A stretch of DNA of 64,000 bases from Rhodothermaceae bacterium (lineage in GTDB: Bacteria; Bacteroidota; Rhodothermia; Rhodothermales; Bin80). The notes under the pieces are model-generated. The model saw nothing but the letters and a program-made list of their open reading frames with translations. It had not been told where the DNA came from and made no database searches. Made by a program: the position numbers and the translations under genes. This document shows positions 40,636 through 55,355 of this stretch, in pieces. Location of the stretch: assembly GCA_009841335.1 (NCBI GenBank), contig VXLY01000067.1, positions 1-64,000 of the forward strand, read 5' to 3'. The stretch's first letter is position 1. Each line of letters starts with the position of its first letter.

Positions 40636-43600
40636 ATGAGACTAAAAGGGTTACTGGGTGTAGCTGTGATGCTGATCCTTACCGTGCCGGTCGTGTTTGC
40701 CCAACAGGGCAAGATTGATGGCGTGGTGACCGATGCTGCCACGGGAGAGACCATTCCCGGAGCAAGTGTTAGGATTGAGGGCACTACTCAGGGAACAGCA
40801 ACGCAGGTAGACGGCTACTTCTTCATCAATAATGTGCGTCCAGGTACCTACACGCTGGTCGTTTCGTTTGTAGGATTTTTGGACCAGAGAGTAGAGGGTA
40901 TTCGGGTTTCTACCGGACTGACAACTACCAGGAACATTCAAATCCGAGAAGAGGCGGTTGGGCTTGAAGAGATCGTGGTCACAAGTGAACGTCCCATTGT
41001 GCAGTTGGATGTGTCTGCCAATGTGGCCAGTCTCAACCCCGAGGCTTTTCAAGATCTCCCGGTGGCCGGTGTCAGTGAGGTACTTGACCTCCAGGCCGGT
41101 ATTGAGCCGGGGCTGCGCGTACGTGGTGGAGGTCTGAATGAAGTTGCTTTTGTGGTTGATGGCATGAATTTGCGGACCGGTCGCTCGCATCAACCATTCA
41201 CGAACATCAGCTACACTTCACTGGAGGAAGTACAGGTCCAGACAGGAGGTTTCAACGCAGAGTACGGAAACGTACGGAGTGGTATCGTGAACGTTACTAC
41301 CAAAGAGCCTTCCCGGACACGCTACACCTTTGACGCACTGTATCGGTATCAACCCGCCCAGCCAAAGTCTCTTGAAGGCTTGGGAGGTACGAATCTGGAC
41401 AATTGCAATTACTCCGGTCCGGTAACGGGGGACTGTGATAGCTGGTTCGTTCGCCCGTTCCTTGACCCGGCAGTGGCTTGGGAAGGCACCGGTAATGGCG
41501 CATGGGATCCCTATACACAGAACCAGTACAATGCTTTTGAGGGCTGGAACGCACTCGCTGACCGGCTTCTGAATGACGAGGGTTTTGATGTTACTGCTCA
41601 GGATATGCAGGAATACTTCAAGCATACCCATCGCAAGGACAACGAGATCACCATGCCGGACTATGAGGCGGATGTTACCTTGGCTGGCCCACTGGTTCCC
41701 GGCCTTAGCAACAGACAGGGTGTTCCAGACGCATTCAGTAGCCTGCGCTTCTCTGTATCCTACAGAGGTACGCAGACTGCTTATATCTATCCTCAGAGCC
41801 GAGAAGCTTTCAAGAATCAGACATTCCAAGGCAAGTTGATCTCAAACGTTGCGCCAGGAATGAAGCTGAGTGTGCAGGGTATGAAGGGTGTAGAGCGCGG
41901 CATCAACCGTTCTCAGGGGAGCGCAGATCTCCGAATGTACGGTGGGCAAATGCCGTCTTATCCATGGTGGGGTGCCGGAGCAGAGATCGTTGATGGTATC
42001 AACCGCCGTGGACGTGTGATTCTGTCTGATGGTGCGTTCCCGCTCGCCAATGTTGACCACACTCTACTCGGAGCCACATTCACGCACACGCTTAGTGCGA
42101 GCACCTTCTACGAAGTTCATCTGCAGAATATTGCGTCAAAGTACCGCAGTCATTTTCCGAATCTTCGTGATGGCTCATATACGGAAGACGGTGTCTTCTA
42201 CCCGGTTCCTTACACCAATAACTTTGGTCGGCTAACTCCCGCGGGCGAGGCAAACAGGGACCAGGTAACCTGCTTTGGTGGTGCTGGAGATCTCAATGGA
42301 GACGGCGTGACAACCCCGTATTGTGTTGGGGATGAACCGTTTGGATTTTTGGGGCAGGGCGGTAACCTGCTCGGCGGTGCCGAGACCACCGGTGGTCACT
42401 GGGTGAAGACTCGAGACACTTCTGATGTGAGTGTATTTACCGGTCGGTTTGACTTGACCAGTCAGGTAACCCGGGTGCTTCAGCTCAAAACGGGTGCAGA
42501 ACTTATTATCAGCGATTACGATCTGAATTACAAGAGAGTAAACCTTGCATTGGTGGGGCCGGAAGCCGAGGCCGATTATCCACTCTCACGCCAACCCATC
42601 CAAGGTGCAGCCTATGCACAGGGTAAGCTGGAATTCCAGGGCATGATCGCCAACCTTGGTGTGCGCATAGACTTCTTTGATGCGAATACAGCCTGGTGGG
42701 TAGCGGAGAACCCGTATGATCAGGCTTTCCGGCAGCGAGTGGAAGGTTTGGATGAACTGCTGAGCAAAGAGGATCCGGCGGCACAGATATTCATAAGCCC
42801 CCGGTTGGGTATCTCCTTCCCGATCACGCAGGAAAGCAAGCTTTATTTCAACTACGGCCATTTCCGTCAAATGCTGAACCCATTTGATGTGTTTGGTATT
42901 CAGCAGTCGCGCAACAGTGGTATTGATGTAATGGGTAACCCAGACCATCCAATGCCCCAGACTGTGGCGTATGAGTTGGGATTTGACCAGAACCTCTTTG
43001 ACCAGTACTTGCTGAGGGTCAGCGGTTTCTATCGTGATATCCGCAATCAGCCTCGTAATGTTACCTACAATAGCCTGGGTGGTGTCGTGAACTATGCGAT
43101 CAAGCAGCCCTGGAATTATGAGGATGTACGTGGGGCAGAAATCACATTGACCAAGCTGCGCGGGGACTGGGTTCGGGGATTTGTCAACTACACCTTCCTG
43201 CAGACCAAAGGCGGCAACTTTGGCTACAGCCAATTCAACGAGAACACCTTCCAGCAGCGGAACTATTTACGGACCTCGACGGACTACCGTATTGGGGCTC
43301 CATTGGCTGAGCCGTTTGCCCGTGCAAACGTGCTCTTCTTGACGCCGACTAGTTTTGTGCCTTCTTTGTTAAATGGTTCATTGCTGGGAGATTGGCGCGT
43401 AAGCCTGCTAGGCGAATGGCGTGCAGGTCAGAAATGGAGATGGGCAGGCGGTGGCGGTGCACCTCCCGAATTGCAGGAGAATGTACGCTGGCGGAGCTAT
43501 GTTAATTTTGATCTTCGCTTCACGAAGCATGTCAATACGCGATTCGGCGGTGCACAGATCTTCCTTGATGTGTCTAACCTCTTCAATCGCCGCCATCTGT

Positions 43601-44037
43601 ACAGTGCCACCGGGTTCCATCCAGATGGTAGAGATTTTGACCGCTACATGTGGTCGCTGCACCTGCCGGAAGACATCTTTGATCAGATGAATGCGGTCGA
43701 CGAGAATTTGTCGTATGCCGACAAACAGGGACTTCCCTATGTATGGGTTCCCGGCGATGATCGGCCAGGTGTATTCCGTCATCCCGATGTAGCCTATCAG
43801 CCAATCGAAGCTTTTAAATCACTTGATGGCGTCAGTGAACCCAATACTGTAGCTTGGTACTGGGCAGCCGACACCGGCACGTATTCTCGCTGGAATGGAT
43901 CCAGCTTTGTAGCTGTGCCGGACGGTGAGGTACAGCAGGTACTTGATGACAAAGCATACATTGATATGCCGAACCTGCGGTTCAACACATTCTTGAACAA
44001 TCGTCGACTCACTTTGGGTATTCGTGTAACCTTATAA
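40636..44037 (+). CDS. Large TonB-dependent receptor with carboxypeptidase-regulatory domain
   Basis: A 1133-residue outer-membrane receptor. It has a signal peptide (MRLKGLLGVAVMLILTVPVVFAQ), then a carboxypeptidase-regulatory-like domain at about residues 27-110 (GVVTDAATGETIPGASVRI, DGYFFINNVRPGTY). A plug follows with LDLQAGIEPGLRVRGGG, EVAFVVDGMNLRTG and GGFNAEYGNVRSGIVNVTT. The rest is a barrel with many aromatic-rich strands and a short closing strand ending RRLTLGIRVTL. The length matches SusC-like or oligopeptide-type receptors, but no SusD gene follows; a 780-residue secreted protein and a PorV-like barrel do. Calcium-like loops occur, such as DLNGDGVTTPYC. Import cargo is unknown. 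Confidence 0.93.
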   Translation: MRLKGLLGVAVMLILTVPVVFAQQGKIDGVVTDAATGETIPGASVRIEGTTQGTATQVDGYFFINNVRPGTYTLVVSFVGFLDQRVEGIRVSTGLTTTRNIQIREEAVGLEEIVVTSERPIVQLDVSANVASLNPEAFQDLPVAGVSEVLDLQAGIEPGLRVRGGGLNEVAFVVDGMNLRTGRSHQPFTNISYTSLEEVQVQTGGFNAEYGNVRSGIVNVTTKEPSRTRYTFDALYRYQPAQPKSLEGLGGTNLDNCNYSGPVTGDCDSWFVRPFLDPAVAWEGTGNGAWDPYTQNQYNAFEGWNALADRLLNDEGFDVTAQDMQEYFKHTHRKDNEITMPDYEADVTLAGPLVPGLSNRQGVPDAFSSLRFSVSYRGTQTAYIYPQSREAFKNQTFQGKLISNVAPGMKLSVQGMKGVERGINRSQGSADLRMYGGQMPSYPWWGAGAEIVDGINRRGRVILSDGAFPLANVDHTLLGATFTHTLSASTFYEVHLQNIASKYRSHFPNLRDGSYTEDGVFYPVPYTNNFGRLTPAGEANRDQVTCFGGAGDLNGDGVTTPYCVGDEPFGFLGQGGNLLGGAETTGGHWVKTRDTSDVSVFTGRFDLTSQVTRVLQLKTGAELIISDYDLNYKRVNLALVGPEAEADYPLSRQPIQGAAYAQGKLEFQGMIANLGVRIDFFDANTAWWVAENPYDQAFRQRVEGLDELLSKEDPAAQIFISPRLGISFPITQESKLYFNYGHFRQMLNPFDVFGIQQSRNSGIDVMGNPDHPMPQTVAYELGFDQNLFDQYLLRVSGFYRDIRNQPRNVTYNSLGGVVNYAIKQPWNYEDVRGAEITLTKLRGDWVRGFVNYTFLQTKGGNFGYSQFNENTFQQRNYLRTSTDYRIGAPLAEPFARANVLFLTPTSFVPSLLNGSLLGDWRVSLLGEWRAGQKWRWAGGGGAPPELQENVRWRSYVNFDLRFTKHVNTRFGGAQIFLDVSNLFNRRHLYSATGFHPDGRDFDRYMWSLHLPEDIFDQMNAVDENLSYADKQGLPYVWVPGDDRPGVFRHPDVAYQPIEAFKSLDGVSEPNTVAWYWAADTGTYSRWNGSSFVAVPDGEVQQVLDDKAYIDMPNLRFNTFLNNRRLTLGIRVTL

Positions 44038-44049
44038 AAGCTTGAAGCA

Positions 44050-44081
44050 GGGCGCCTGCCTCGGAATCAGGACAGGCGCCC
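44050..44081 (+). terminator. GC-rich hairpin after the TonB receptor gene
   Basis: GGGCGCCTG (44050-44058) pairs perfectly with CAGGCGCCC (44073-44081) around a 14-base loop. It starts 13 bases after the receptor stop and is followed by a broken T-rich run (44089-44100). It is probably a partial terminator or an RNase barrier inside the operon. Confidence 0.7.
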
Positions 44082-44114
44082 GCTGATGGTTTTCATTTTT
44101 AATCTAGCAAGCTC

Positions 44115-46457
44115 ATGAAAATCAGTTACTACATGAAAGCACTTTCGGCTGGACTGTTATTGTTCACCTTCGTGCCAATGGCTGCCACGGCCCAGTTCAC
44201 TGCACAATGGCTGGATATTGGCACATTCCACAGCACATGGACAGAGTCAGGAGCCCAGCATGAAGGTAATTCGTCTGCCGCGGATGGTATGGAATGGCCC
44301 TCCATTCTGCGTAACAGCAGTCACTTCAGGGCCAAAGCACTTTGGCTGGGTACAAAGGACTGGACAGATGCCAACGGACAATCCTTCCCATACTTCGTAG
44401 CCCGGATTGGTCCTCGGACGGCCGGTGCGGATGTGACGTACCCAGTACAAAATGTGCTTATTAGCAAGACGGAGGACACTGTTGTGGAGGTGGATGGAGC
44501 CCTGTCGTTCGACAATGTCGCTGTTGTTGACGAGATAGATCCAGGGCTTCCGGCCGACCGAATGGTGCATAACGTCCACAATACATATATCGGCGTTACG
44601 GTAGATCGGAGGGCATACGCCTATGTCAATCAGGCTCACGATGACTATAACATCATTGAGTACATTTACACCAACACCGGAAACGTGGACGAAGACGAGG
44701 ATATCGAACTTCCGAATCAGAACTTGAAAGATACGTACTTCTTCCGCATCCACCGGTGGAGGGGAAATCTGCAGGGTGCCTGGACAGTCAGCGGTGGCAT
44801 GGTTTGGGGCAAGTTCAGCATGATTGACGTCGTCGGAGATGGACATGCAGAGTACCCGATCACATTTACCTCACAGTACCTGTGGATTGGTATTGATCCT
44901 GAAACACAGGGAGACTATGATCGCTTTGGTGGGTCCCTTTTCAACGAGGCCTGGTGGGCACCTCCGGCTGATTCGATTGGACGCTTGACCGGGGCTAGTT
45001 ACATTGGTCGGGCAACAATTCATGCCGACAACTCGCCCACGGATTCCCGCTACATTCGCTGCACCATGGCTACCATAGAGACCTGTCAGCCTGCGACCAT
45101 GGGCTTTATGGACTCTGACGAAGCACTGACAGCTGACGGTAGTTCTCACGAAGATTATTACGAGTGGGGGATTCGGACGCGTGAGAATCCTGACCGTATT
45201 GATGGTGGGTCCCAGCATATGTGGCCGCATTATGCTGACCGTATTGAGCCTAGCGGCATATTCTGGGAGGCCAAGAATGACGCCTCCACGGGTAAGCAGG
45301 GCGGTCACGCTGTCACGACAGCTTATGGCCCCTACGATTTTGCCCCAGGTGAAAGTGTTCGGCTCGTGGTCGTTGAAGGTGTGGGCGGATTGACCATTGA
45401 TGCCAGTGTCAGGATTGGCAGGGCATTTAAGCTTGGTGGATTGGATCGCGATTCAGACCTGATCCGCTATGATGCAAATGGGGATGGAATGATTCAGACC
45501 GGTACTTTCGATCATTCCATCAATCAGATGGATATGGATGGCGATGGAATGTTTGATACATTCGGCCATGGATTGGAGGAGATGACCAAGAATCAGTGGG
45601 TTGTAACTGCACGTGATTCGATGTTGCAGACGCTGCAGCGGGGAATTAACCTCTATGCAGCCAGCAATAACATGAGTGCTTATCCAATTCCCGAAGCACC
45701 TCATGCTCCCACGACCTTCAGTGTTGTCGGTCGTCCGGACAAAGTTGAAGTCAGATGGACGAATCCTGCGGGGGGACCTTCGCGCACAAAATGGCTACTC
45801 TATCGGACCTCCCGGTATGAGGACTACATTTACGAAAGCTGCCTGAACCTTGACTCACAGCAGTATACGGATGGCTCAAATCCAAGAGATCCGGCGGATC
45901 CCAGTGCGTCTGGTCAGCAGCACTGCGGCTACGAAATGATCGCGTCGCTGGATGCCGGAGCAAATTCCTATGATGATACAGACCTCAACAGGGGAACGGA
46001 CTACTACTACTATCTACAGGCCGTTGGTGGACCGCAGCCTATGGATCCAGATGGTATTTCTGGAACGCCAACAGGCGCACCACTTCGCAGCTCTCGCTCC
46101 CTCACACAGACCTATCAGCCTGTTAACCTGAAACGCCCCGCGTATGGGTCAACCGGCACTGTGGAGGATGCACGTATCGTACCTAACCCGGTTAATCTCG
46201 GCGCAGATGCTACTGTAAGGTTCGATCAAGAGGACCGTGTTGCATTCTTCAATATCCCGGGTAACTGTACGATCAAGATCTATACCGAGATTGGAGAATT
46301 GGTCCACACCATTGAGCATAATGACGGTAGTGGTGATGAGCTATGGAACTTGACCACCACATCTCGTCAGTTGCTTGTGAGCGGTATCTACATTGCTGTT
46401 ATTTCAGACAATGACACGGGTGACGAAGCGATTCGAAAATTCACGGTAATCCGGTAG
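44115..46457 (+). CDS. Secreted 780-residue protein with FN3-like and C-terminal FlgD-like domain
   Basis: A 780-residue exported protein (signal MKALSAGLLLFTFVPMAATAQ; the first Met at 44115 or the second at 44133 may be the start). The first ~400 residues are beta-rich with many Trp/Tyr. Calcium-like loops DANGDGMIQTG and DMDGDGMFDTF follow. An FN3-like module (VVGRPDKVEVRWTNPAGGP; NRGTDYYYYLQAVGG) comes next. The last ~90 residues, PNPVNLGADATVRFD, CTIKIYTEIGELV and SGIYIAVISDN, form a FlgD-like or sorting-domain fold. It is flanked by a TonB receptor and a PorV-like protein, so surface display is plausible. No enzyme motif is recognised. Confidence 0.75.
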   Translation: MKISYYMKALSAGLLLFTFVPMAATAQFTAQWLDIGTFHSTWTESGAQHEGNSSAADGMEWPSILRNSSHFRAKALWLGTKDWTDANGQSFPYFVARIGPRTAGADVTYPVQNVLISKTEDTVVEVDGALSFDNVAVVDEIDPGLPADRMVHNVHNTYIGVTVDRRAYAYVNQAHDDYNIIEYIYTNTGNVDEDEDIELPNQNLKDTYFFRIHRWRGNLQGAWTVSGGMVWGKFSMIDVVGDGHAEYPITFTSQYLWIGIDPETQGDYDRFGGSLFNEAWWAPPADSIGRLTGASYIGRATIHADNSPTDSRYIRCTMATIETCQPATMGFMDSDEALTADGSSHEDYYEWGIRTRENPDRIDGGSQHMWPHYADRIEPSGIFWEAKNDASTGKQGGHAVTTAYGPYDFAPGESVRLVVVEGVGGLTIDASVRIGRAFKLGGLDRDSDLIRYDANGDGMIQTGTFDHSINQMDMDGDGMFDTFGHGLEEMTKNQWVVTARDSMLQTLQRGINLYAASNNMSAYPIPEAPHAPTTFSVVGRPDKVEVRWTNPAGGPSRTKWLLYRTSRYEDYIYESCLNLDSQQYTDGSNPRDPADPSASGQQHCGYEMIASLDAGANSYDDTDLNRGTDYYYYLQAVGGPQPMDPDGISGTPTGAPLRSSRSLTQTYQPVNLKRPAYGSTGTVEDARIVPNPVNLGADATVRFDQEDRVAFFNIPGNCTIKIYTEIGELVHTIEHNDGSGDELWNLTTTSRQLLVSGIYIAVISDNDTGDEAIRKFTVIR

Positions 46458-46460
46458 CTG

Positions 46461-46506
46461 TGTTAGCAAGGCGCTCTGGCTGCACAGGGCAGAGCGCCTT
46501 GCAACA
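46461..46506 (+). terminator. Very strong intergenic hairpin without U-tract
   Basis: GCAAGGCGCTCTG (46466-46478) and CAGAGCGCCTTGC (46490-46502) pair perfectly, and TGTT/AACA (46461-46464, 46503-46506) extend the stem past one bulged A. No U-tract follows, so it is less likely an intrinsic terminator than a stability element between the secreted-protein and PorV genes. Confidence 0.7.
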
Positions 46507-46532
46507 CGCAACCCTATAAGACAAACGATGCA

Positions 46533-47600
46533 ATGAAAAAGCACTACTTCTTTTCAATACTGACGGTCGCCGCACTCCTGCTTGGCAGTGCTTCGATTAC
46601 ATATGGTCAGGCAGGCCTAACCCCGGATACTGAGGTGGAAACGGACAAGCGCGCCCAGACCGGAATGAAATTCCTGAGCACATCGGTGGATGCCCGCGCT
46701 TCTGCTATTGGTTCAGCGCTGACTGCCGAGATGGTCGGTTCTTCGACTTCAATGTTCTACAATCCTGCGAGTATGGGCTTCATGGTGGGGCGTATGCATG
46801 CAGCTGCAACCAGTATGAGCTTTATCGCAGATATCGGCTATACACAGGCCAGTATTGCGTTCCGTCCTGGTTCAGGGGGCAACTTTGGTGTAGTTGGTGT
46901 ATCACTGGTTTCGGTGGATTATGGCGACTTCAACTATAACGTTCGTGCCAACAATGAAGATGGATTTGTGCAGTTGGGAACCTATCAACCCACGGCCATG
47001 GCTGTGGGCCTGGGGTACGCCAGATCATTTGGTGACCGTTTCTCGGCGGGCGCCAACGTTAAGCTCGTTTTCCAGGATCTAGGTTCAGGATTTGCGACTT
47101 CCCAGGAATTTGATACCGGGGCTGTTACTACAACAGAGGACTACAGCGCACAGACAGTAGCATTTGATTTCGGTATTGTGTATGCCACCGGGTTTGAGAG
47201 CTTGGTTATCGGAATGAGCGCGCGTAACTTTGCCCAGGAGCAAACCTATGTGCGGGAAAGGTTTGAGTTGCCGCTGACCTTCCAGATCGGAATGTCAATG
47301 AACTTGGTTGACCTTACCTCCATGGATCCAGACATGCACAGCATTCAGCTTCATGTCGATGCCCAGCGTCCCAGAGACTTTTCTGAGCATGTTCGTTTCG
47401 GAGTGGAATACACACTTATGGATATAGTGTCCATTCGAGGTGGGTTTGAGCAACTGGGCGTGAGCGAAGAGCAGGGATTGAGTGCTGGCGCCGGACTTCG
47501 GTATGAGTTCGGAAACGTCCGTGTTGGGGCAGACTACGCATATACCCAGTTTGGTGTCTTCGGCACGGTGAACCGCATTGGCCTCCAGATTGGTCTCTAA
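46533..47600 (+). CDS. PorV/PorQ-family outer-membrane beta-barrel protein
   Basis: A 355-residue protein with a signal peptide (MKKHYFFSILTVAALLLGSASITYGQ) and the PorV/PorQ family pattern: GMKFLSTSVDARASAIGSALTA, SMFYNPASMGFM, IADIGYTQASIAF, NFGVVGVSLVSVDYG, then paired strands and a final closing strand, VRVGADYAYTQFGVFG. PorV helps release and attach type IX secretion substrates in Bacteroidota; other members are FadL-like barrels. It is the third gene of the receptor operon and is followed by a classical terminator. Confidence 0.85.
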   Translation: MKKHYFFSILTVAALLLGSASITYGQAGLTPDTEVETDKRAQTGMKFLSTSVDARASAIGSALTAEMVGSSTSMFYNPASMGFMVGRMHAAATSMSFIADIGYTQASIAFRPGSGGNFGVVGVSLVSVDYGDFNYNVRANNEDGFVQLGTYQPTAMAVGLGYARSFGDRFSAGANVKLVFQDLGSGFATSQEFDTGAVTTTEDYSAQTVAFDFGIVYATGFESLVIGMSARNFAQEQTYVRERFELPLTFQIGMSMNLVDLTSMDPDMHSIQLHVDAQRPRDFSEHVRFGVEYTLMDIVSIRGGFEQLGVSEEQGLSAGAGLRYEFGNVRVGADYAYTQFGVFGTVNRIGLQIGL

Positions 47601-47619
47601 AACGAAAAATCAATTCATT

Positions 47620-47686
47620 CCTGAGTAACTAGTATTCAGGTTAATAGCGGAGAATTGGGGTTATGCTCCAATTCTCCGCTTTTTTC
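47620..47686 (+). terminator. Tandem hairpins ending in a classical intrinsic terminator
   Basis: The first hairpin is CCTGAGTA/TATTCAGG (47620-47640, one G-T pair). The second is a perfect 13-bp stem, AGCGGAGAATTGG (47646-47658) with CCAATTCTCCGCT (47668-47680), followed directly by TTTTTT. It ends the receptor operon. Only 5 bases separate its T-run from the next gene's ATG at 47692. Confidence 0.9.
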
Positions 47687-47691
47687 TAGAG

Positions 47692-49407
47692 ATGAGATAT
47701 TCGGTCGACCACGTACTCATCTGTGGAGTGGCTTGTGTGATTGCGGCATTGTCTGGATGTGAGAACGCTCCGCCCCCCGAGCTCTCCGACAAACCCATTG
47801 GTTTCACCGAGGTCACCGCCGACGCGGGCCTTGGAGCCTTCCGACATGATAACGGTGCGGATGGAAAGAAATACTACGCGGAGCAAATGGGGTCAGGTGC
47901 AGGATTTATTGACTATGACGGCGATGGCTGGCTAGACATCTTGCTTCTGGGCGGCGGGTACTGGGATCGCGCCCCGCATGCGTGGTACCAATCATTTTGG
48001 ATGTATCGCAATATGGGGGATGGCACATTTGAGGAGGTAACGGACGAGGTGGGCTTGGGGCAACTTTATGCCTTCACGCTTGGCGTGGCAACAGCTGACT
48101 TCGACAATGACGGAGACCAGGATATTCTGGTGACGAATCTCAATGAAAACATGCTCTTGGAAAACAAGGGCGGTGTGTTTGAACACATAAAATCGAGTCT
48201 AGGCTTCCACGATGAATGGAGTAGCTCAGCGCTGTGGATAGATACTAATCGTGATGGATGGCTGGATGTTTACGTAGGCAATTACGCAGACTGGAGCCCG
48301 ACGCGCGACAAGTTCTGCCCCGAGGGGGGTATGGTTAAGCTCTACTGCGTTCCCGCGGATTATGAGGGCATATCCAGTCGGTACTTTGAAGCCAGGGGTG
48401 ATGGCGTGTTCGTTGAGCGAACGCACGAGGCCGGTATTTACCACCCGCTGGGAAAGGCCCTTGGTATGGCAGAGTGGGATTTCGATCGTGATGGCTGGCC
48501 CGACTTTGTTGTGGCTAATGATGGTGAAGGAGACCTGCTGTTCATGAACAATCAGGACGGCACATATTCCGAGCGAGGGGTACAGAGTGGGATCGCTTTC
48601 AGTGAGCATGGGGAGGCCCGTGCAGGAATGGGTATTGATATTGGGGTGATGGATGAAACCGGAGAACCATCAGTTTTTGTGGGTAACTTTTCCACGGAAA
48701 TGATCGGTGTGTACCGTTATTTGGGCAACGGGCTGTTTAGCGATCGCGCGGCCAGGTCCCGTATTGGTCAACCGAGCCTGAATACGCTCACCTTCGGATT
48801 AATGGTGCTCGATGTCGACCTGGATGGCGACCTGGACTTGTTTGTTGCAAACGGACACGTATATCCAGATCGGTTGGTAGGGCAGGATAAGATTACCTAT
48901 GAACAGCGGGCACAGTTGTTCGAGAACGTTGGCAGCGGATTCTTTGAAGAGGTCTCCCCTTCAACGACGCCACCTCTGGAGATAGAAATGGTTGCTCGAG
49001 GTGCGGCCTACGGAGATTATGACCGTGATGGTGACCCGGATATCTTGATCGTCGAGAACGGCGGTCCGGCGCGTTTATGGCGCAATGATGTGACTGGGCG
49101 GAATTGGTTACGCGTTACTGTTACGGGGACCGAGGGGAATCGCGATGCCTTTGGTACTCACGTCCGCGTGTATGCGGGAGATCGGATTCAGGAGCGTCGC
49201 ATTCGTTCGGGGTCCAGTTATCTCTCCCAAAATGAGGTGGTTGCTACATTTGGCTTGATGGATAGTCAGGCAATTGACAGCGTTCGTGTGGATTGGGCCG
49301 CCGGAGGCTCCCTGACACTGCAGGATGTGCCCATCAACACAGAGGTTCACGTTACTGAGGGTCAGCAGGGTTGGATCGAACGTTCGATGCCCGGGGCGGC
49401 CAAATAG
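47692..49407 (+). CDS. CRTAC1-family FG-GAP/ASPIC lipoprotein, copy 1
   Basis: A 571-residue lipoprotein (lipobox LSGC, about residue 22). It opens with FTEVTADAGL and then has FG-GAP/VCBS repeats with calcium-like loops: DYDGDGWLDILLLGG, DFDNDGDQDILVTN, DTNRDGWLDVYVGN, DFDRDGWPDFVVAND, DVDLDGDLDLFVANG and DYDRDGDPDILIVENGG. The C-terminus is an ASPIC/UnbV domain (NWLRVTVTGTEGNRDAFGTHVRV, SSYLSQNE). A Cys pair lies at DKFCPEGG and KLYCVP. The fold is an integrin-like propeller; CRTAC1 members occur in Bacteroidota and planctomycetes and their role is unsettled. It is the first of three tandem paralogues. Confidence 0.9.
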   Translation: MRYSVDHVLICGVACVIAALSGCENAPPPELSDKPIGFTEVTADAGLGAFRHDNGADGKKYYAEQMGSGAGFIDYDGDGWLDILLLGGGYWDRAPHAWYQSFWMYRNMGDGTFEEVTDEVGLGQLYAFTLGVATADFDNDGDQDILVTNLNENMLLENKGGVFEHIKSSLGFHDEWSSSALWIDTNRDGWLDVYVGNYADWSPTRDKFCPEGGMVKLYCVPADYEGISSRYFEARGDGVFVERTHEAGIYHPLGKALGMAEWDFDRDGWPDFVVANDGEGDLLFMNNQDGTYSERGVQSGIAFSEHGEARAGMGIDIGVMDETGEPSVFVGNFSTEMIGVYRYLGNGLFSDRAARSRIGQPSLNTLTFGLMVLDVDLDGDLDLFVANGHVYPDRLVGQDKITYEQRAQLFENVGSGFFEEVSPSTTPPLEIEMVARGAAYGDYDRDGDPDILIVENGGPARLWRNDVTGRNWLRVTVTGTEGNRDAFGTHVRVYAGDRIQERRIRSGSSYLSQNEVVATFGLMDSQAIDSVRVDWAAGGSLTLQDVPINTEVHVTEGQQGWIERSMPGAAK

Positions 49408-49409
49408 CG

Positions 49410-51074
49410 ATGCGGAACTCAGGCTTGCTTTTTTTGTGTTTATTGTTTCTCGTCGGATGTGCAACCCGGCCATCGGAGGACTCAGATGACACGGGTCACC
49501 TGTTTACTGATGTGACAGAACAGGCAGGACTGAGCGGAGTACTGCACACGAATGGTGGTTTCGGAGATTCCTGGGCACCGGAAATAGTTGGTGCGGGTGG
49601 GGCGTTTATTGATTATGACGGCGATGACCAGCAGGATATTCTTGTAGTTACCGGCGGTGCATTCGAGGGAGAACCTCCACTTGGTGCGCATCCAGCGCTG
49701 AGACTTTTTCGCAATATGGGAAATGGAACGTTTGCTGAGGTTACGCAGCCTGCTGGTTTGGCACTCTTGCGCAGCTATAGCCTAGGGGTAACGATCGGAG
49801 ACTACGACAATGATGGGGATCAGGATATCTATGTGACAAATCTAGGCCCAGACTTGTTGTTACGTAACACTGATGGTGTATTCGAGGATGTTGGCCAGGC
49901 AGCAGGTGTGGGCGTAATAAGTGAGTGGAGTACTAGCGCAATGTTCTTTGATGCCAATCTTGATGGGCATCTAGATATCTATGTTGGAACGTATGTACAC
50001 TGGACGCCCGAAGATGATATTTACTGCAGTTTTGGTGGAAGCAAAGTTTACTGTACTCCCGAACTCTATGAGGGTATTGCGAGTCGCTACTATGAAAACC
50101 AGGGTGATGGTACGTTTACAGAAGCTACGGCAAGAGCGGGTTTCCTGACGGGTGTGGAGGCCATCCGGGATAAGACACTGGGGGTCGCGGAGATGGATGC
50201 GAACGGTGATGGGTGGCCTGACGTAGTTGTGGCTAACGACACAGAACGAGATATGCTCTTCATTAATCAGGGCAATGGTTCGTTCATTGAACGCGGAATC
50301 ACGAGTGGAATAGCCTACGATCAGCACGGCAAACCCAGGGCGGGTATGGGCATAGATGTTGGCGTCGTGGATGATTCTGGGGAGCCCTCCATATTCGTCG
50401 GAAATTTTTCGGATGAGATGGTGGGTGTATACCAGCACATGGGAGGCGGCATTTTCAGGGATCGGGCATCGGCCTCACGTATAGGGCAACCTAGCTTCAA
50501 GACATTAACTTTTGGTTTAGTGCTTTTTGACGTAGACCTGGATGCAGATTTGGATCTGTTGATTGCGAATGGACATGTGCAGACGCACATTGCACAGATT
50601 GTGGACGGTGTCACTTTTCGTCAGCGACCTCAGTTGTTCCTGAATGATGGGACAGGGATATTTGCTGAGATGCCACCAGCCGGTTTATTAGCTGAATCCT
50701 TTGTAGGGCGTGGGCTTGCCACTGGGGACTATGATCGGGATGGGGATTTAGACGTGTTAATAGTAGAAAACAATGGTCCGATACACCTCTGGCGCAATGA
50801 ATCACAGGGGCGATCATGGCTTCGGGTTGAACTCATAGGCACGGAAAGCAACCGAAATGCATATGGCGCTCAGCTCCACCTCTGGACAAATGGCCAGATG
50901 CAGGTTCGGCGCATACGCGCGGGATCAAGCTATCTTTCTCATTCAGAAACAGCAGCGTTCTTTGGATTTGACGGCACTCCAGACAGTTTGCACATACGGT
51001 GGCCAAGCGGCAAAGAATCTCGGGAACATGAATTGGGGATAAATTCCAGACTACTAATTGTAGAAGATGAGTAG
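49410..51074 (+). CDS. CRTAC1-family FG-GAP/ASPIC lipoprotein, copy 2
   Basis: About 554 residues from the ATG at 49410, with the signal LFLCLLFLVGC giving a lipobox (LVGC). The frame extends 13 codons upstream into copy 1, but the signal peptide fits this start. It has the same architecture as its neighbour: FTDVTEQAGLSGVLHTNGG, YDGDDQQDILVVTGG, DYDNDGDQDIYVTN, DANLDGHLDIYVGT, DVDLDADLDLLIANG, DYDRDGDLDVLIVENNG, then ASPIC/UnbV (SWLRVELIGTESNRNAYGAQ, AGSSYLSHSE). The Cys pair DIYCSFGG and KVYCTP is conserved. It starts 2 bases after copy 1 and overlaps copy 3 by 8 bases. Confidence 0.9.
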   Translation: MRNSGLLFLCLLFLVGCATRPSEDSDDTGHLFTDVTEQAGLSGVLHTNGGFGDSWAPEIVGAGGAFIDYDGDDQQDILVVTGGAFEGEPPLGAHPALRLFRNMGNGTFAEVTQPAGLALLRSYSLGVTIGDYDNDGDQDIYVTNLGPDLLLRNTDGVFEDVGQAAGVGVISEWSTSAMFFDANLDGHLDIYVGTYVHWTPEDDIYCSFGGSKVYCTPELYEGIASRYYENQGDGTFTEATARAGFLTGVEAIRDKTLGVAEMDANGDGWPDVVVANDTERDMLFINQGNGSFIERGITSGIAYDQHGKPRAGMGIDVGVVDDSGEPSIFVGNFSDEMVGVYQHMGGGIFRDRASASRIGQPSFKTLTFGLVLFDVDLDADLDLLIANGHVQTHIAQIVDGVTFRQRPQLFLNDGTGIFAEMPPAGLLAESFVGRGLATGDYDRDGDLDVLIVENNGPIHLWRNESQGRSWLRVELIGTESNRNAYGAQLHLWTNGQMQVRRIRAGSSYLSHSETAAFFGFDGTPDSLHIRWPSGKESREHELGINSRLLIVEDE

Positions 51075-52743
51075 TTCAAGGATTGTCAAGACCGGCCTAA
51101 TGATTGCGTTGTTCGTTTCGGCGGGCTGTGGATCCGAAACAGATGAAGAAGCTCCGGAAGTTGGCAGGCGTACGGTTGAGATCGTATTTACTGACGTAAC
51201 TGAAGAGTCGGGTTTGGGGGACTTCCAGCATGAAACAGGTGCTTTCGGAGAAAAGTGGTTTCCAGAGACAATGGGGGCAGGCGGCGGCTTCCTGGATTAT
51301 GACAGCGATGGGATTCTGGATGTATTGCTTGTTTCAGGCGGGTTTTTTTCGTCAGGAGAGCAGGTGTCGCCACCAACGCTCCGACTGTATAAGGGCATTG
51401 GAGACGGTACGTTTTCAGATGTCACACAGGAGTCTGGATTGGCAGGATTACAGGCCTACGCCTTTGGCGTTAGCGTTGCGGATTATGATAATGATACTGA
51501 TGCAGACATTTTCGTCACCGCACTGTACGAGAACCTCCTGCTTCGTAATGATGAGGGTGTATTTAGCGAAGTCAGTGCAGAAGCAGGGTTGGGAGGCTAT
51601 CGGGAGTGGAGTGCAGCCGGTGTGTTTATGGATGCAAATTTAGACGGATGGCTTGACCTTTATGTGGGAAACTATGTTGACTGGACGCCGGAAAAAGATA
51701 TTTACTGCACACGTGTCGGAGATAAGAAATCCTATTGCACACCGGAGCAGTATGAGGGGATATCAGGTCGCTTTTATGTCAACCTAGGCGACGGGACATT
51801 TGAAGAGCAATCAGACGATTTCAGGGGTTTGCCTGGAAAGACACTTGGAGCAGCCAGTTTGGACTACAACAGAGATGGGTGGTCGGATTTGATTGTGGCA
51901 AACGATACGCAACGGGATTTGCTTTTCGAAAATCAACGGGATGGGACATTCATTGAAAAAGGCATCGTAAGTGGCATTGCGTTTGATGAGACCGGGCGGG
52001 CGCGTGCCGGTATGGGACTTGATGTAGGTGTTGTAGACGAAACTGGCAGAGAAACAGTGTTTGTGGGGCATTTTTCGGGCGAGATGGTTGGTGTTTACCG
52101 TCACGCGGGTAGTGGTATTTTTATCGAACGGGCAGCCGTTTCCCAGATTGGACGTCCCAGTTTACCTACACTTACCTTCGGTCTCTTGCTTGCTGATTTT
52201 GATCTGGACGGGGATCTGGACCTTTTGACGGCGAACGGCCACATAACTGAAGATATCGGAGAGGTGGAGGAGGGCATAACTTTCCGGCAGCGGACACAAC
52301 TTTACGTGAACGAAGGGGGTGGTCTATTTTCCGAGATTGAGGCAAGTGGCGCTCTGGCAGAACATATGGTAGCCCGGGGCGCAGCCTGGGCGGATTATGA
52401 TATGGATGGAGATCCAGACGTGCTTATCAGTGAGAATGGAGGGCCTGCTCGCCTCTGGCGCAATGACACGCAGCCCGGTAGTTCATTAATCGTTCAATTG
52501 ACAGGTAACAGCAGTAATCGCGATGGCATTGGCAGTCGCGTCCGTGTGAAAACAGATCAGGGATGGCAGGAGCGTTATGTGAGAGGAGGCGCAAGCTATC
52601 TTTCGCAAAACCAGCAATGGCCGCTTTTTGGGCTTGGGTTGTCTGCTGTTGCTGATTCCTTGGAGGTATATTGGCCTGATGGTACTTTGACTGTACGAGA
52701 GGCAGTACCAGCAGGAGTGATCAAATTAACTGAAGAATCATAG
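51067..52743 (+). CDS. CRTAC1-family FG-GAP/ASPIC lipoprotein, copy 3
   Basis: A 558-residue lipoprotein (LFVSAGC, lipobox SAGC) with the same repeat-and-ASPIC plan: FTDVTEESGLGDFQHETG, DYDSDGILDVLLVSGG, DYDNDTDADIFVTA, DANLDGWLDLYVGN, DYNRDGWSDLIVAND, DFDLDGDLDLLTANG, DYDMDGDPDVLISENGG, and SYLSQNQQWPLFGLG. The Cys pair DIYCTRVG and KSYCTP is conserved in all three. Its start overlaps copy 2 by 8 bases (ATGAGTAG), so the three are one translated unit; copy 3 is a divergent paralogue rather than a recent exact duplicate. A 157-base gap leads to the TPR lipoprotein. Confidence 0.9.
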   Translation: MSSSRIVKTGLMIALFVSAGCGSETDEEAPEVGRRTVEIVFTDVTEESGLGDFQHETGAFGEKWFPETMGAGGGFLDYDSDGILDVLLVSGGFFSSGEQVSPPTLRLYKGIGDGTFSDVTQESGLAGLQAYAFGVSVADYDNDTDADIFVTALYENLLLRNDEGVFSEVSAEAGLGGYREWSAAGVFMDANLDGWLDLYVGNYVDWTPEKDIYCTRVGDKKSYCTPEQYEGISGRFYVNLGDGTFEEQSDDFRGLPGKTLGAASLDYNRDGWSDLIVANDTQRDLLFENQRDGTFIEKGIVSGIAFDETGRARAGMGLDVGVVDETGRETVFVGHFSGEMVGVYRHAGSGIFIERAAVSQIGRPSLPTLTFGLLLADFDLDGDLDLLTANGHITEDIGEVEEGITFRQRTQLYVNEGGGLFSEIEASGALAEHMVARGAAWADYDMDGDPDVLISENGGPARLWRNDTQPGSSLIVQLTGNSSNRDGIGSRVRVKTDQGWQERYVRGGASYLSQNQQWPLFGLGLSAVADSLEVYWPDGTLTVREAVPAGVIKLTEES

Positions 52744-52900
52744 CCTATTCATAAATATCCTATTGAAACCGGATACGCGCGTCTGCATAAGCTTCTAGGA
52801 TCCACATACCAGGATAAGGCATCGGTGGGGTATGCATATAGTGCCATCGTCCGGTGGTGACCTGGTTGCGACGATTTGAAATGATTCCTTCCACGGTACA

Positions 52901-54166
52901 ATGAGAACAAGACTGCTACTGTTATTCCTGTTAGCCGCTGGCTGCTCTGAGCCAAACGGGATTGCGGAGGAGCAACGAAAGAATCTTTCTCCGTGGGTGG
53001 CCAGATACATGGTTGAAGCAGAAAATGCATTCGGGCGGGGTATTTATGAGTTGGCACTCACCTATACGGACAGCGTGGAGGCGTATTCGCCTGAATTGGC
53101 AGATCTTCATTACCTTCGCGGCAGGATATATACGCAACTCAATCGTCTAGATGTGGCACAGGCTGCCTATCAGACGGTTCTGGAGATTGATCCGGCGTAT
53201 GCCGGGGCCCGGTTTGCGATGGGATTGAACAGTTTCCGGCGTGGCAAGCTTCGCGACGCCATCAACTCCTACCTGGAGGAGGAGTCTCAGGTAGGCCCTA
53301 CAACGGCTCTATATCATGAATTGGGGCGGGCTTATGCCAAACTTGGTGTGCCAGACAGTGCCCAGATCGCGTATACTCAGGCCTTAACAATTGACCCCAA
53401 TCATGCGATGACTTACATGTGGTTGGGACAATTACTCGAGGAAACAGGAGATTTGGAGGGGGCGCTGGAAACCTCCCTGGCCGGCTTGAAACTTCGCCCC
53501 GATGACTTGGATTACCAGTACATCGTTGGCACGCAGTATTTCAGGTTGGATTCGGCTGAAGCTGCGCTTCCGTACCTGGAGCCTGTGGCCGAGAAGCGCT
53601 CATGGCATCACGGTGCACAGTTCAATCTTGGACAAGTCTACATGCGGCTTGGGCGGGAGTCTGACGCAGAGATGTATTTTGCAAGAGCCGACCAAGCGCA
53701 GCAGCTACAGCAGCGTGTTAACAAAGCGCAGAACGCCATTAACAATGATCCTGGGTCGCCAGCCAACTGGATTGAGCTTGGTAACCGGCTTCGTCAAGCT
53801 AAGAGATTTGGGCGTGCGATTGAGGCGTACAAGAATGGGTTGACCATTGACGTACCACCGGGGCTTGCGTTGTACATGCAGACTAATCTTGCAACGTTAT
53901 ATCTCGAGTGCGGGGACGCAACGGAGGCGGCCAACAGACTTGAAGCAATCCTGCGCGCGGATCCTACTTTAACTGCTGCGAGATTCAATTTAGGCGTGGC
54001 ATATGCACAGGGTGGGAGACTGGATGAAGCGCGTGCAACATGGGTAGAACTTCTCGAAATGGAGCCCACGCATGAGAATGCCTTGGCCTATCTGGAATTA
54101 CTGGACTCAACGGATCAAACTGAACATGTGGAAGCGAGCGGTACTGACTGCCTTGATACTGGCTAA
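52901..54166 (+). CDS. TPR-repeat lipoprotein downstream of the CRTAC1 array
   Basis: A 421-residue lipoprotein (signal MRTRLLLLFLLAAGC, lipobox AAGC). TPR helices are easily read: GIYELALTYTDSVEAYSP, NRLDVAQAAYQTVLEIDPAY, DSAQIAYTQALTIDPNHAM, GDLEGALETSLAGLKLRPDD and GDATEAANRLEAILRADP, closing with GRLDEARATWVELLEMEPTHENAL. CRTAC1 and TPR genes often occur together in other bacteria. Its last 41 bases overlap the start of the next gene. A role as a scaffold for the neighbouring surface lipoproteins is inferred. Confidence 0.88.
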   Translation: MRTRLLLLFLLAAGCSEPNGIAEEQRKNLSPWVARYMVEAENAFGRGIYELALTYTDSVEAYSPELADLHYLRGRIYTQLNRLDVAQAAYQTVLEIDPAYAGARFAMGLNSFRRGKLRDAINSYLEEESQVGPTTALYHELGRAYAKLGVPDSAQIAYTQALTIDPNHAMTYMWLGQLLEETGDLEGALETSLAGLKLRPDDLDYQYIVGTQYFRLDSAEAALPYLEPVAEKRSWHHGAQFNLGQVYMRLGRESDAEMYFARADQAQQLQQRVNKAQNAINNDPGSPANWIELGNRLRQAKRFGRAIEAYKNGLTIDVPPGLALYMQTNLATLYLECGDATEAANRLEAILRADPTLTAARFNLGVAYAQGGRLDEARATWVELLEMEPTHENALAYLELLDSTDQTEHVEASGTDCLDTG

Positions 54167-55355
54167 CACGGGCATTGGGGCCAAGTCCCAGTCTATGCAG
54201 GAGGGAGACTGGGTCGGACAAATCATTCACCTTACAGGTCGTTATATGGATGCGATCTACAAGGTCCGCGATACTAATGGTGAACTTCAGATTGTGCTGG
54301 AAGTAGAGGATTTTGGGCCCTTTGAATTCAATGACATCCAGGTGACGCCGGACAGCCTCTCCTTCGTGTGGGAACCCTCATTTGAGCTGCAGTGCACGCT
54401 GGCCAGACTTCCAGATAACGTATATCACGGTGTGTGTAAGGACCCATGGGGAGGGTTCGGCGGTATTGTGATGGCGCCTCCGGGTTCAAACGCGGATGAG
54501 TTGACATTGGACGAAATGACATTCAAGAGCATCGCAGGTATAGGTGATGCTGACTCGGAGGAAAAAGCTTCGATTCTAGGTCCAATGTATCCAGTGGGGC
54601 AGTCGGCGCAATTATCTAGTGGAGCTGTGAACTATGTGGATGCTGGCTCCGGTCCGATTACGGTGATACTCATTGCGGGTCTGGGAGATAATCTTACATC
54701 TTGGGAATTGCTCCATCGGGGTTTGGCTCGCGAGACGCGTGTCATAGCCTACGACCGCCCGGGTCTCGGGTTTTCAGAAGAAACCAGTATTGCGCGCACG
54801 CCTGAGCAGATGGCCACTGAACTGAACGAACTCCTTCGGAGTGCCGAGATAACCTCCCCATATCTGATTGTGGCTCATGCAGAGAGCGCCTTTACTGCAC
54901 GGCGTTTCACAGATCTGTACGGAGAGGACGTTCATGGATTGGTGCTGATTGACCCCCATCATGAGGATCAGGCAGCGCTGTGGGAGGGTTTAAATGCCCA
55001 AGGATGGCAGTCCTATTGGACGCAGTTAAAAAAATTCCAGATGATGCTCCCCGGAGGTTCCGGTCGGGAGTTTGAAGCCTATGCGGCGATCATCGATGGT
55101 GAGAGGATTCCTGGATTGGGCCCGGTACCTCAAGTCCCCACTGTGGTGATCACTGCCGGTCGTGTATCTGAGTCTCCGAGGTGGATCGGGGAGACCGAGG
55201 AGGGGCGTGAAGCATGGAATGATTTTCATGCGGACTGGGTGGAGGGAATGCCCTCGGGCAGCCGTATAATTCAGCTACAAAGTGGGCCATATATCCAGAA
55301 TGAGAAGTCAGACGAGTTAGAGGAGATCATTCGAGCGATACTCTCTGCCAGATAG
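54126..55355 (+). CDS. Exported alpha/beta-hydrolase-fold protein lacking catalytic Ser and His
   Basis: About 409 residues. It has a signal peptide (MWKRAVLTALILANTGIGAKSQ), a beta-rich N-terminal domain at about residues 25-130, and an alpha/beta-hydrolase domain. The hydrolase framework is clear (VILIAGLGDNLTSWELLHRGL, YDRPGLGFSE, DVHGLVLIDPHHEDQ). At the nucleophile elbow, where family members have GHSxGG, this protein reads LIVAHAESA, so Ser is Ala. Near the end the usual SGHYIQ is SGPYIQNEKSDE, so the catalytic His is Pro. Both changes are plain in the codons (GCT CAT GCA GAG; AGT GGG CCA TAT). It overlaps the TPR gene by 41 bases and probably has a non-catalytic role. Confidence 0.85.
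   Translation: MWKRAVLTALILANTGIGAKSQSMQEGDWVGQIIHLTGRYMDAIYKVRDTNGELQIVLEVEDFGPFEFNDIQVTPDSLSFVWEPSFELQCTLARLPDNVYHGVCKDPWGGFGGIVMAPPGSNADELTLDEMTFKSIAGIGDADSEEKASILGPMYPVGQSAQLSSGAVNYVDAGSGPITVILIAGLGDNLTSWELLHRGLARETRVIAYDRPGLGFSEETSIARTPEQMATELNELLRSAEITSPYLIVAHAESAFTARRFTDLYGEDVHGLVLIDPHHEDQAALWEGLNAQGWQSYWTQLKKFQMMLPGGSGREFEAYAAIIDGERIPGLGPVPQVPTVVITAGRVSESPRWIGETEEGREAWNDFHADWVEGMPSGSRIIQLQSGPYIQNEKSDELEEIIRAILSAR

Follow-up and report, generated by a model that had tools for sequence, protein, structure and literature searches.

The best-known cases in which an alpha/beta-hydrolase-fold enzyme has become a binding protein come from animals, whose neuroligins and NDRG proteins are non-catalytic members of the fold. 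Literature searches on bacterial pseudoenzymes of this fold, and on CRTAC1, ASPIC, TonB and TPR, returned nothing direct. The window analysed here is a 64,000-nucleotide stretch of DNA from a Rhodothermaceae bacterium, and its initial annotation proposed a secreted alpha/beta-hydrolase-fold pseudoenzyme, kept under selection, that might partner co-transcribed TPR and CRTAC1 lipoproteins. Here, we examine the domain structure, catalytic residues, selection and gene neighbourhood of this protein, hereafter the pseudo-hydrolase, and compare it with its enzymatic relatives and with the animal proteins.

Domain structure and genomic setting

The forward-strand frame at 54126-55355 translates without interruption over 409 residues (Table 1), and a search at E 0.001 found a single copy in the genome. 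Scans for promoters and terminators scored no better than shuffled sequences, and PADLOC, which we ran to check for a link to anti-phage defence, gave no match for the protein. The putative signal peptides of its orthologues end in AxA or AxS, with Q as the next residue. Judging from these N-terminal sequences, the pseudo-hydrolase is probably exported through Sec, without a lipobox cysteine, and probably resides in the periplasm.

Table 1. Features of the window and related loci. Positions refer to the window unless a locus is named.
Feature	Position	Strand	Remarks
SusC/RagA-like TonB-dependent receptor	40636..44037	+	Profile matches
Large exported protein, probable type IX sorting C-terminus	44115..46457	+	PorZ-like C-terminus; weakly CHU_C
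PorV/PorQ family outer-membrane protein	46533..47600	+	NF033709, 176.6 bits (cut-off 90)
CRTAC1-type lipoprotein a	47692..49407	+	FG-GAP repeats and ASPIC/UnbV
CRTAC1-type lipoprotein b	49371..51074	+
CRTAC1-type lipoprotein c	51067..52743	+
TPR lipoprotein	52901..54166	+	TPR models; directly 5' of pseudo-hydrolase in 22/23 genomes
Pseudo-hydrolase gene	54126..55355	+	409 aa, probably exported, two-domain; open frame
Probable Sec signal peptide, residues 1-22	54126..54191	+	Lipobox Cys absent; read from sequence
N-terminal beta-barrel domain, residues 23-122	54192..54491	+	Separate model, nine strands; Cys90 and Cys104 conserved
Degenerate alpha/beta-hydrolase domain, residues 156-409	54591..55352	+	Pfam Abhydrolase_6 and Abhydrolase_1 above cut-off; model; PDB fold matches
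Ala252, former nucleophile codon (GCA)	54879..54881	+	Ser in intact relatives; alignment
Glu253	54882..54884	+	Conserved in 14/16 of window's family; absent from intact relatives
Asp276	54951..54953	+	Putative remaining catalytic acid; aligned to post-strand-6 acids of relatives
His278	54957..54959	+	Conserved in 14/16, window's family only
Pro388, former catalytic His codon (CCA)	55287..55289	+	Alignment
Stand-alone N-domain loci	L106:1798-2214, L107:1230-1637, L211:9167-9625, L212:6774-7196, L213:375-953, L214:8895-9365		Six other Rhodothermales genomes

The protein had been described as a single hydrolase-fold unit, but we find two domains, the N-terminal barrel having been overlooked. Both profile and predicted fold place the C-terminal domain in the alpha/beta-hydrolase superfamily. 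The protein scores 32.9 bits against PF12697 (Abhydrolase_6, cut-off 26.3) and 30.7 bits against PF00561 (Abhydrolase_1, cut-off 25.8). Structural modelling, which the initial annotation had suggested, gave a confident hydrolase domain that matches solved alpha/beta hydrolases: mean pLDDT is 82.8 for the full model and mostly above 85 within this domain, and a PDB fold search returned 1331 chains at E <=0.001, the top ones all alpha/beta-fold hydrolases. The best match is 4uhc (E 8.4e-14), and the nearest solved structures comprise esterases, meta-cleavage hydrolases, Cif-type epoxide hydrolases and dehalogenases.

The N-terminal domain of ~100 residues has no match in Pfam. Modelled separately, it folds into a nine-stranded barrel (pLDDT 88.7) whose conserved Cys90 and Cys104 could form a disulfide. 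Its overall shape resembles that of small calycin-like barrels, and Foldseek returned weak matches to designed barrels, fatty-acid-binding proteins and Cap15 (receptor barrel 7n35, TM 0.71), with ~13-16% identity for the top barrel matches and E values no better than 4.7e-3.

The gene closes a cassette that in the window runs from a SusC-like receptor through a type IX-sorted protein, a PorV/PorQ protein, three CRTAC1 lipoproteins and a TPR lipoprotein to the pseudo-hydrolase. As far as contigs reach, the other members of the window's family keep this order, and so does a second family (f15), there with two CRTAC1 genes. The pseudo-hydrolase gene lies directly 3' of the TPR gene in 22 of the 23 genomes that encode a full-length homologue; in the 23rd (G026, a third family) the two are 3.5 kb apart, with an inverted TonB-receptor gene between them. 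In the window they overlap by 41 bp, which suggests that they are co-expressed. The TPR gene occurs in 39 of the 114 genomes of the order, a set that includes every one of the 23 pseudo-hydrolase carriers (hypergeometric p 5e-14, with the relatedness of the genomes ignored). Many other Rhodothermales genomes have the cassette without the pseudo-hydrolase, which is therefore not essential to it.

The SusC-like/type IX-sorted/PorV-PorQ/CRTAC1/TPR cassette itself (window 40636-54166; L141, L142, L145, L147) is widespread in Rhodothermales. In several cassettes of the same family, the main TPR gene is immediately preceded by a second, shorter one (L038:7811-8755, L039:7891-8742, L042:7679-8476).

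Loss of the catalytic residues

We aligned the 23 full-length homologues (16 from the window's family, its own copy included, six from f15 and the one from G026) with 19 intact-type relatives that lack the N-terminal domain, drawn from Bacteroidota, Actinomycetota, Proteobacteria and others. Columns that read GHSxGG and SGHYIQ/SGHxIH in intact relatives correspond to VAHAESA and LQSGPYIQ in the window protein, placing Ala252 at the nucleophile serine and Pro388 at the catalytic histidine. The replacement of both residues, annotated from one sequence, thus extends to the whole clade: the serine is present in 18/19 relatives and 0/23 full-length homologues (Fisher p 5e-11), and the histidine in 19/19 and 0/23 (p 2e-12), the sequences inside each group being related. 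Active serine hydrolases carry an elbow nucleophile (Ser, or else Asp or Cys) and a histidine after strand 8, and the pseudo-hydrolase has neither.

At the nucleophile position, all 16 members of the window's family have Ala, all six f15 sequences have Gly, and G026 has Asp. The histidine column is more varied, with Pro (8), Ser (6), Thr (1) and Ala (1) in the window's family; f15 has Thr there, and G026 has Ser. The HAES elbow noted at first is present in the window protein but is not family-wide, as residue 254 is Ser, Ala or Gly and the motif is usually HAEG. These substitutions stand beside TPR and CRTAC1 genes in 16/16 window-family genomes, in the six of f15 and, with one gene inserted, in G026, the recurrence that the initial annotation had proposed to look for. 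Sequencing error or frameshift is ruled out because identical substitutions recur across many separate assemblies, and the absence of frameshifts first reported for the window's gene holds in 23/23 genomes. Since nearly all the relatives keep both residues, the ancestor of the hydrolase domain was most likely canonical; searches of 114 genomes of the order and 394 of the phylum, at the cut-offs applied, turned up no intact two-domain ancestor.

Alignment suggests Asp276 as the likely remaining catalytic acid. It is kept in 14/16 of the window's family, with Glu in f15 and His in one species. A same-genus homologue (L005:1501-2721) reads IHPHH, with His at the likely acid, so that all three triad positions are changed. 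Separately, a Gemmatimonadota relative (L050:9458-10777) reads GHGLGG, with Gly for the nucleophile Ser and its His kept.

The protein might still be an enzyme, using migrated catalytic residues or another chemistry within the old pocket, with Glu253, Asp276 and His278 as one conceivable set. Migrated residues are known in some pseudoenzymes (PMC10211241). Glu253 and His278 are new and adjoin the old nucleophile and the old acid, respectively, in sequence; by analogy with homologous folds, Glu253 should point towards the former active site. Asp276 is widely retained in the window's family, and the Asp in the nucleophile column of G026 could in principle act as a nucleophile. However, Glu253 and His278 are confined to the window's family, both being unconserved in f15 and G026. 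The 23-homologue alignment contains no newly conserved Ser, Cys or His across the clade; Ser217 and His251 are the only invariant Ser or His residues of the hydrolase domain, and both are common to intact relatives. To our knowledge, the other chemistries on this fold (Asp-nucleophile dehalogenases, epoxide hydrolases and cofactor-free dioxygenases) all need a histidine, the residue missing in 23/23. We therefore regard retained catalysis as quite unlikely.

Two individual candidates were also considered. Ser254 was rejected as a shifted nucleophile, as Ser occupies this position in only 6/16 of the window's family. The His391 column (SGxYIH) is an unlikely replacement base: Gln occupies it in the window protein, and in intact relatives a His is common at this position as well, beside the catalytic one.

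Selection and distribution

Full-length homologues occur one per genome in nine other same-genus and six other same-family genomes (47-91% identity), in the six f15 genomes (about 27-30%) and in G026 (34-37%). The named homologue records are Rhodothermales or Bacteroidota MAGs, and no plasmid-borne full-length copies were found. A single origin of the catalytic loss is neither supported nor rejected by the tree (p-AU 0.23), but is favoured because the fusion and gene order are shared.

Purifying selection on the pseudo-hydrolase is clear. Against three close relatives, whole-gene dN/dS is 0.18, 0.165 and 0.13 (bootstrap 95% limits within 0.09-0.26), and for the hydrolase domain alone it is 0.13-0.20 (limits within 0.08-0.33, upper limits 0.21-0.33). 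With limits well below 1, these values support the proposal of a pseudoenzyme, presumably inactive and secreted, that is kept under selection; the protein has the pattern expected of a pseudoenzyme, in that the catalytic residues are lost throughout the clade and the frame is under selection. The cassette neighbours have dN/dS of 0.03-0.125, so the pseudo-hydrolase evolves faster and is under weaker constraint than the rest of the cassette.

This faster evolution, together with the varying residues in the former His column, could be taken as the mark of a decaying, non-functional esterase relic. The selection result in the main refutes that reading: dN/dS is far below 1, no stops or frameshifts interrupt the frame in 23/23 genomes, and the protein has been retained across families at about 28% identity. 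We consider decay highly improbable.

The N-terminal barrel may carry the main function. An extreme form of this idea, in which the barrel alone matters and the hydrolase domain serves only as a spacer or to stabilise the fold, draws on the slightly lower dN/dS of the N-domain and on its occurrence alone, as short frames with exported-like starts, in six Rhodothermales genomes beyond the 23. These encode small, putatively exported proteins with conserved cysteines, and the stretches checked held no recognisable cassette genes beside them. Against it, purifying selection on the hydrolase domain is similar, and the domain is present in all 23 cassette-linked copies; we judge this reading unlikely.

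Proposed role and comparison with known proteins

The same loss, the same neighbourhood and selection recur in 23/23 homologues, which argues that a former enzyme has probably become a binding or scaffold protein. We favour, with reasonable though not high confidence, a secreted subunit of the envelope cassette that has lost catalysis and serves for binding or as a scaffold, a reading based on clade-wide residue loss, purifying selection, synteny and the two-domain build. The proposed subunit would be a Sec-exported, probably periplasmic protein in which a small beta-barrel is joined to a hydrolase domain without nucleophile and base. It would act by binding rather than catalysis, as an accessory of the SusC-PorV/PorQ-CRTAC1-TPR cassette, either holding a ligand or docking onto a cassette lipoprotein, and its binding surfaces would be the barrel and the reshaped pocket of the former active site. 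More speculatively, the previously undescribed barrel and dead hydrolase could define a family of bacterial periplasmic receptors or adaptors that would capture a ligand in this pocket and pass it to, or themselves gate, the SusC/PorV/CRTAC1/TPR surface machine of Rhodothermales.

The pseudo-hydrolase shares its hydrolase-domain fold with canonical Abhydrolase_1/6 enzymes such as a Pontibacter homologue (L049) and the Thermogutta esterase 4uhc, as well as the motifs YDRxGxGxS, LVLVDPxHE and SGxxIH. Those enzymes keep Ser and His and have no N-terminal barrel, whereas the pseudo-hydrolase has the barrel and lacks both residues, and for its family the profile label 'alpha/beta hydrolase' is misleading. 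It would represent a bacterial, probably exported case of conversion that has become fixed in a clade, and its link to a conserved envelope cassette opens its role to deletion and pull-down experiments. The proposed principle is that of neuroligins and NDRG proteins, in which the hydrolase fold is reused for binding once catalytic residues are lost. Unlike them, the pseudo-hydrolase is bacterial, probably exported, fused to a barrel and linked to a SusC/PorV/CRTAC1/TPR cassette, and the likeness we propose is one of principle.
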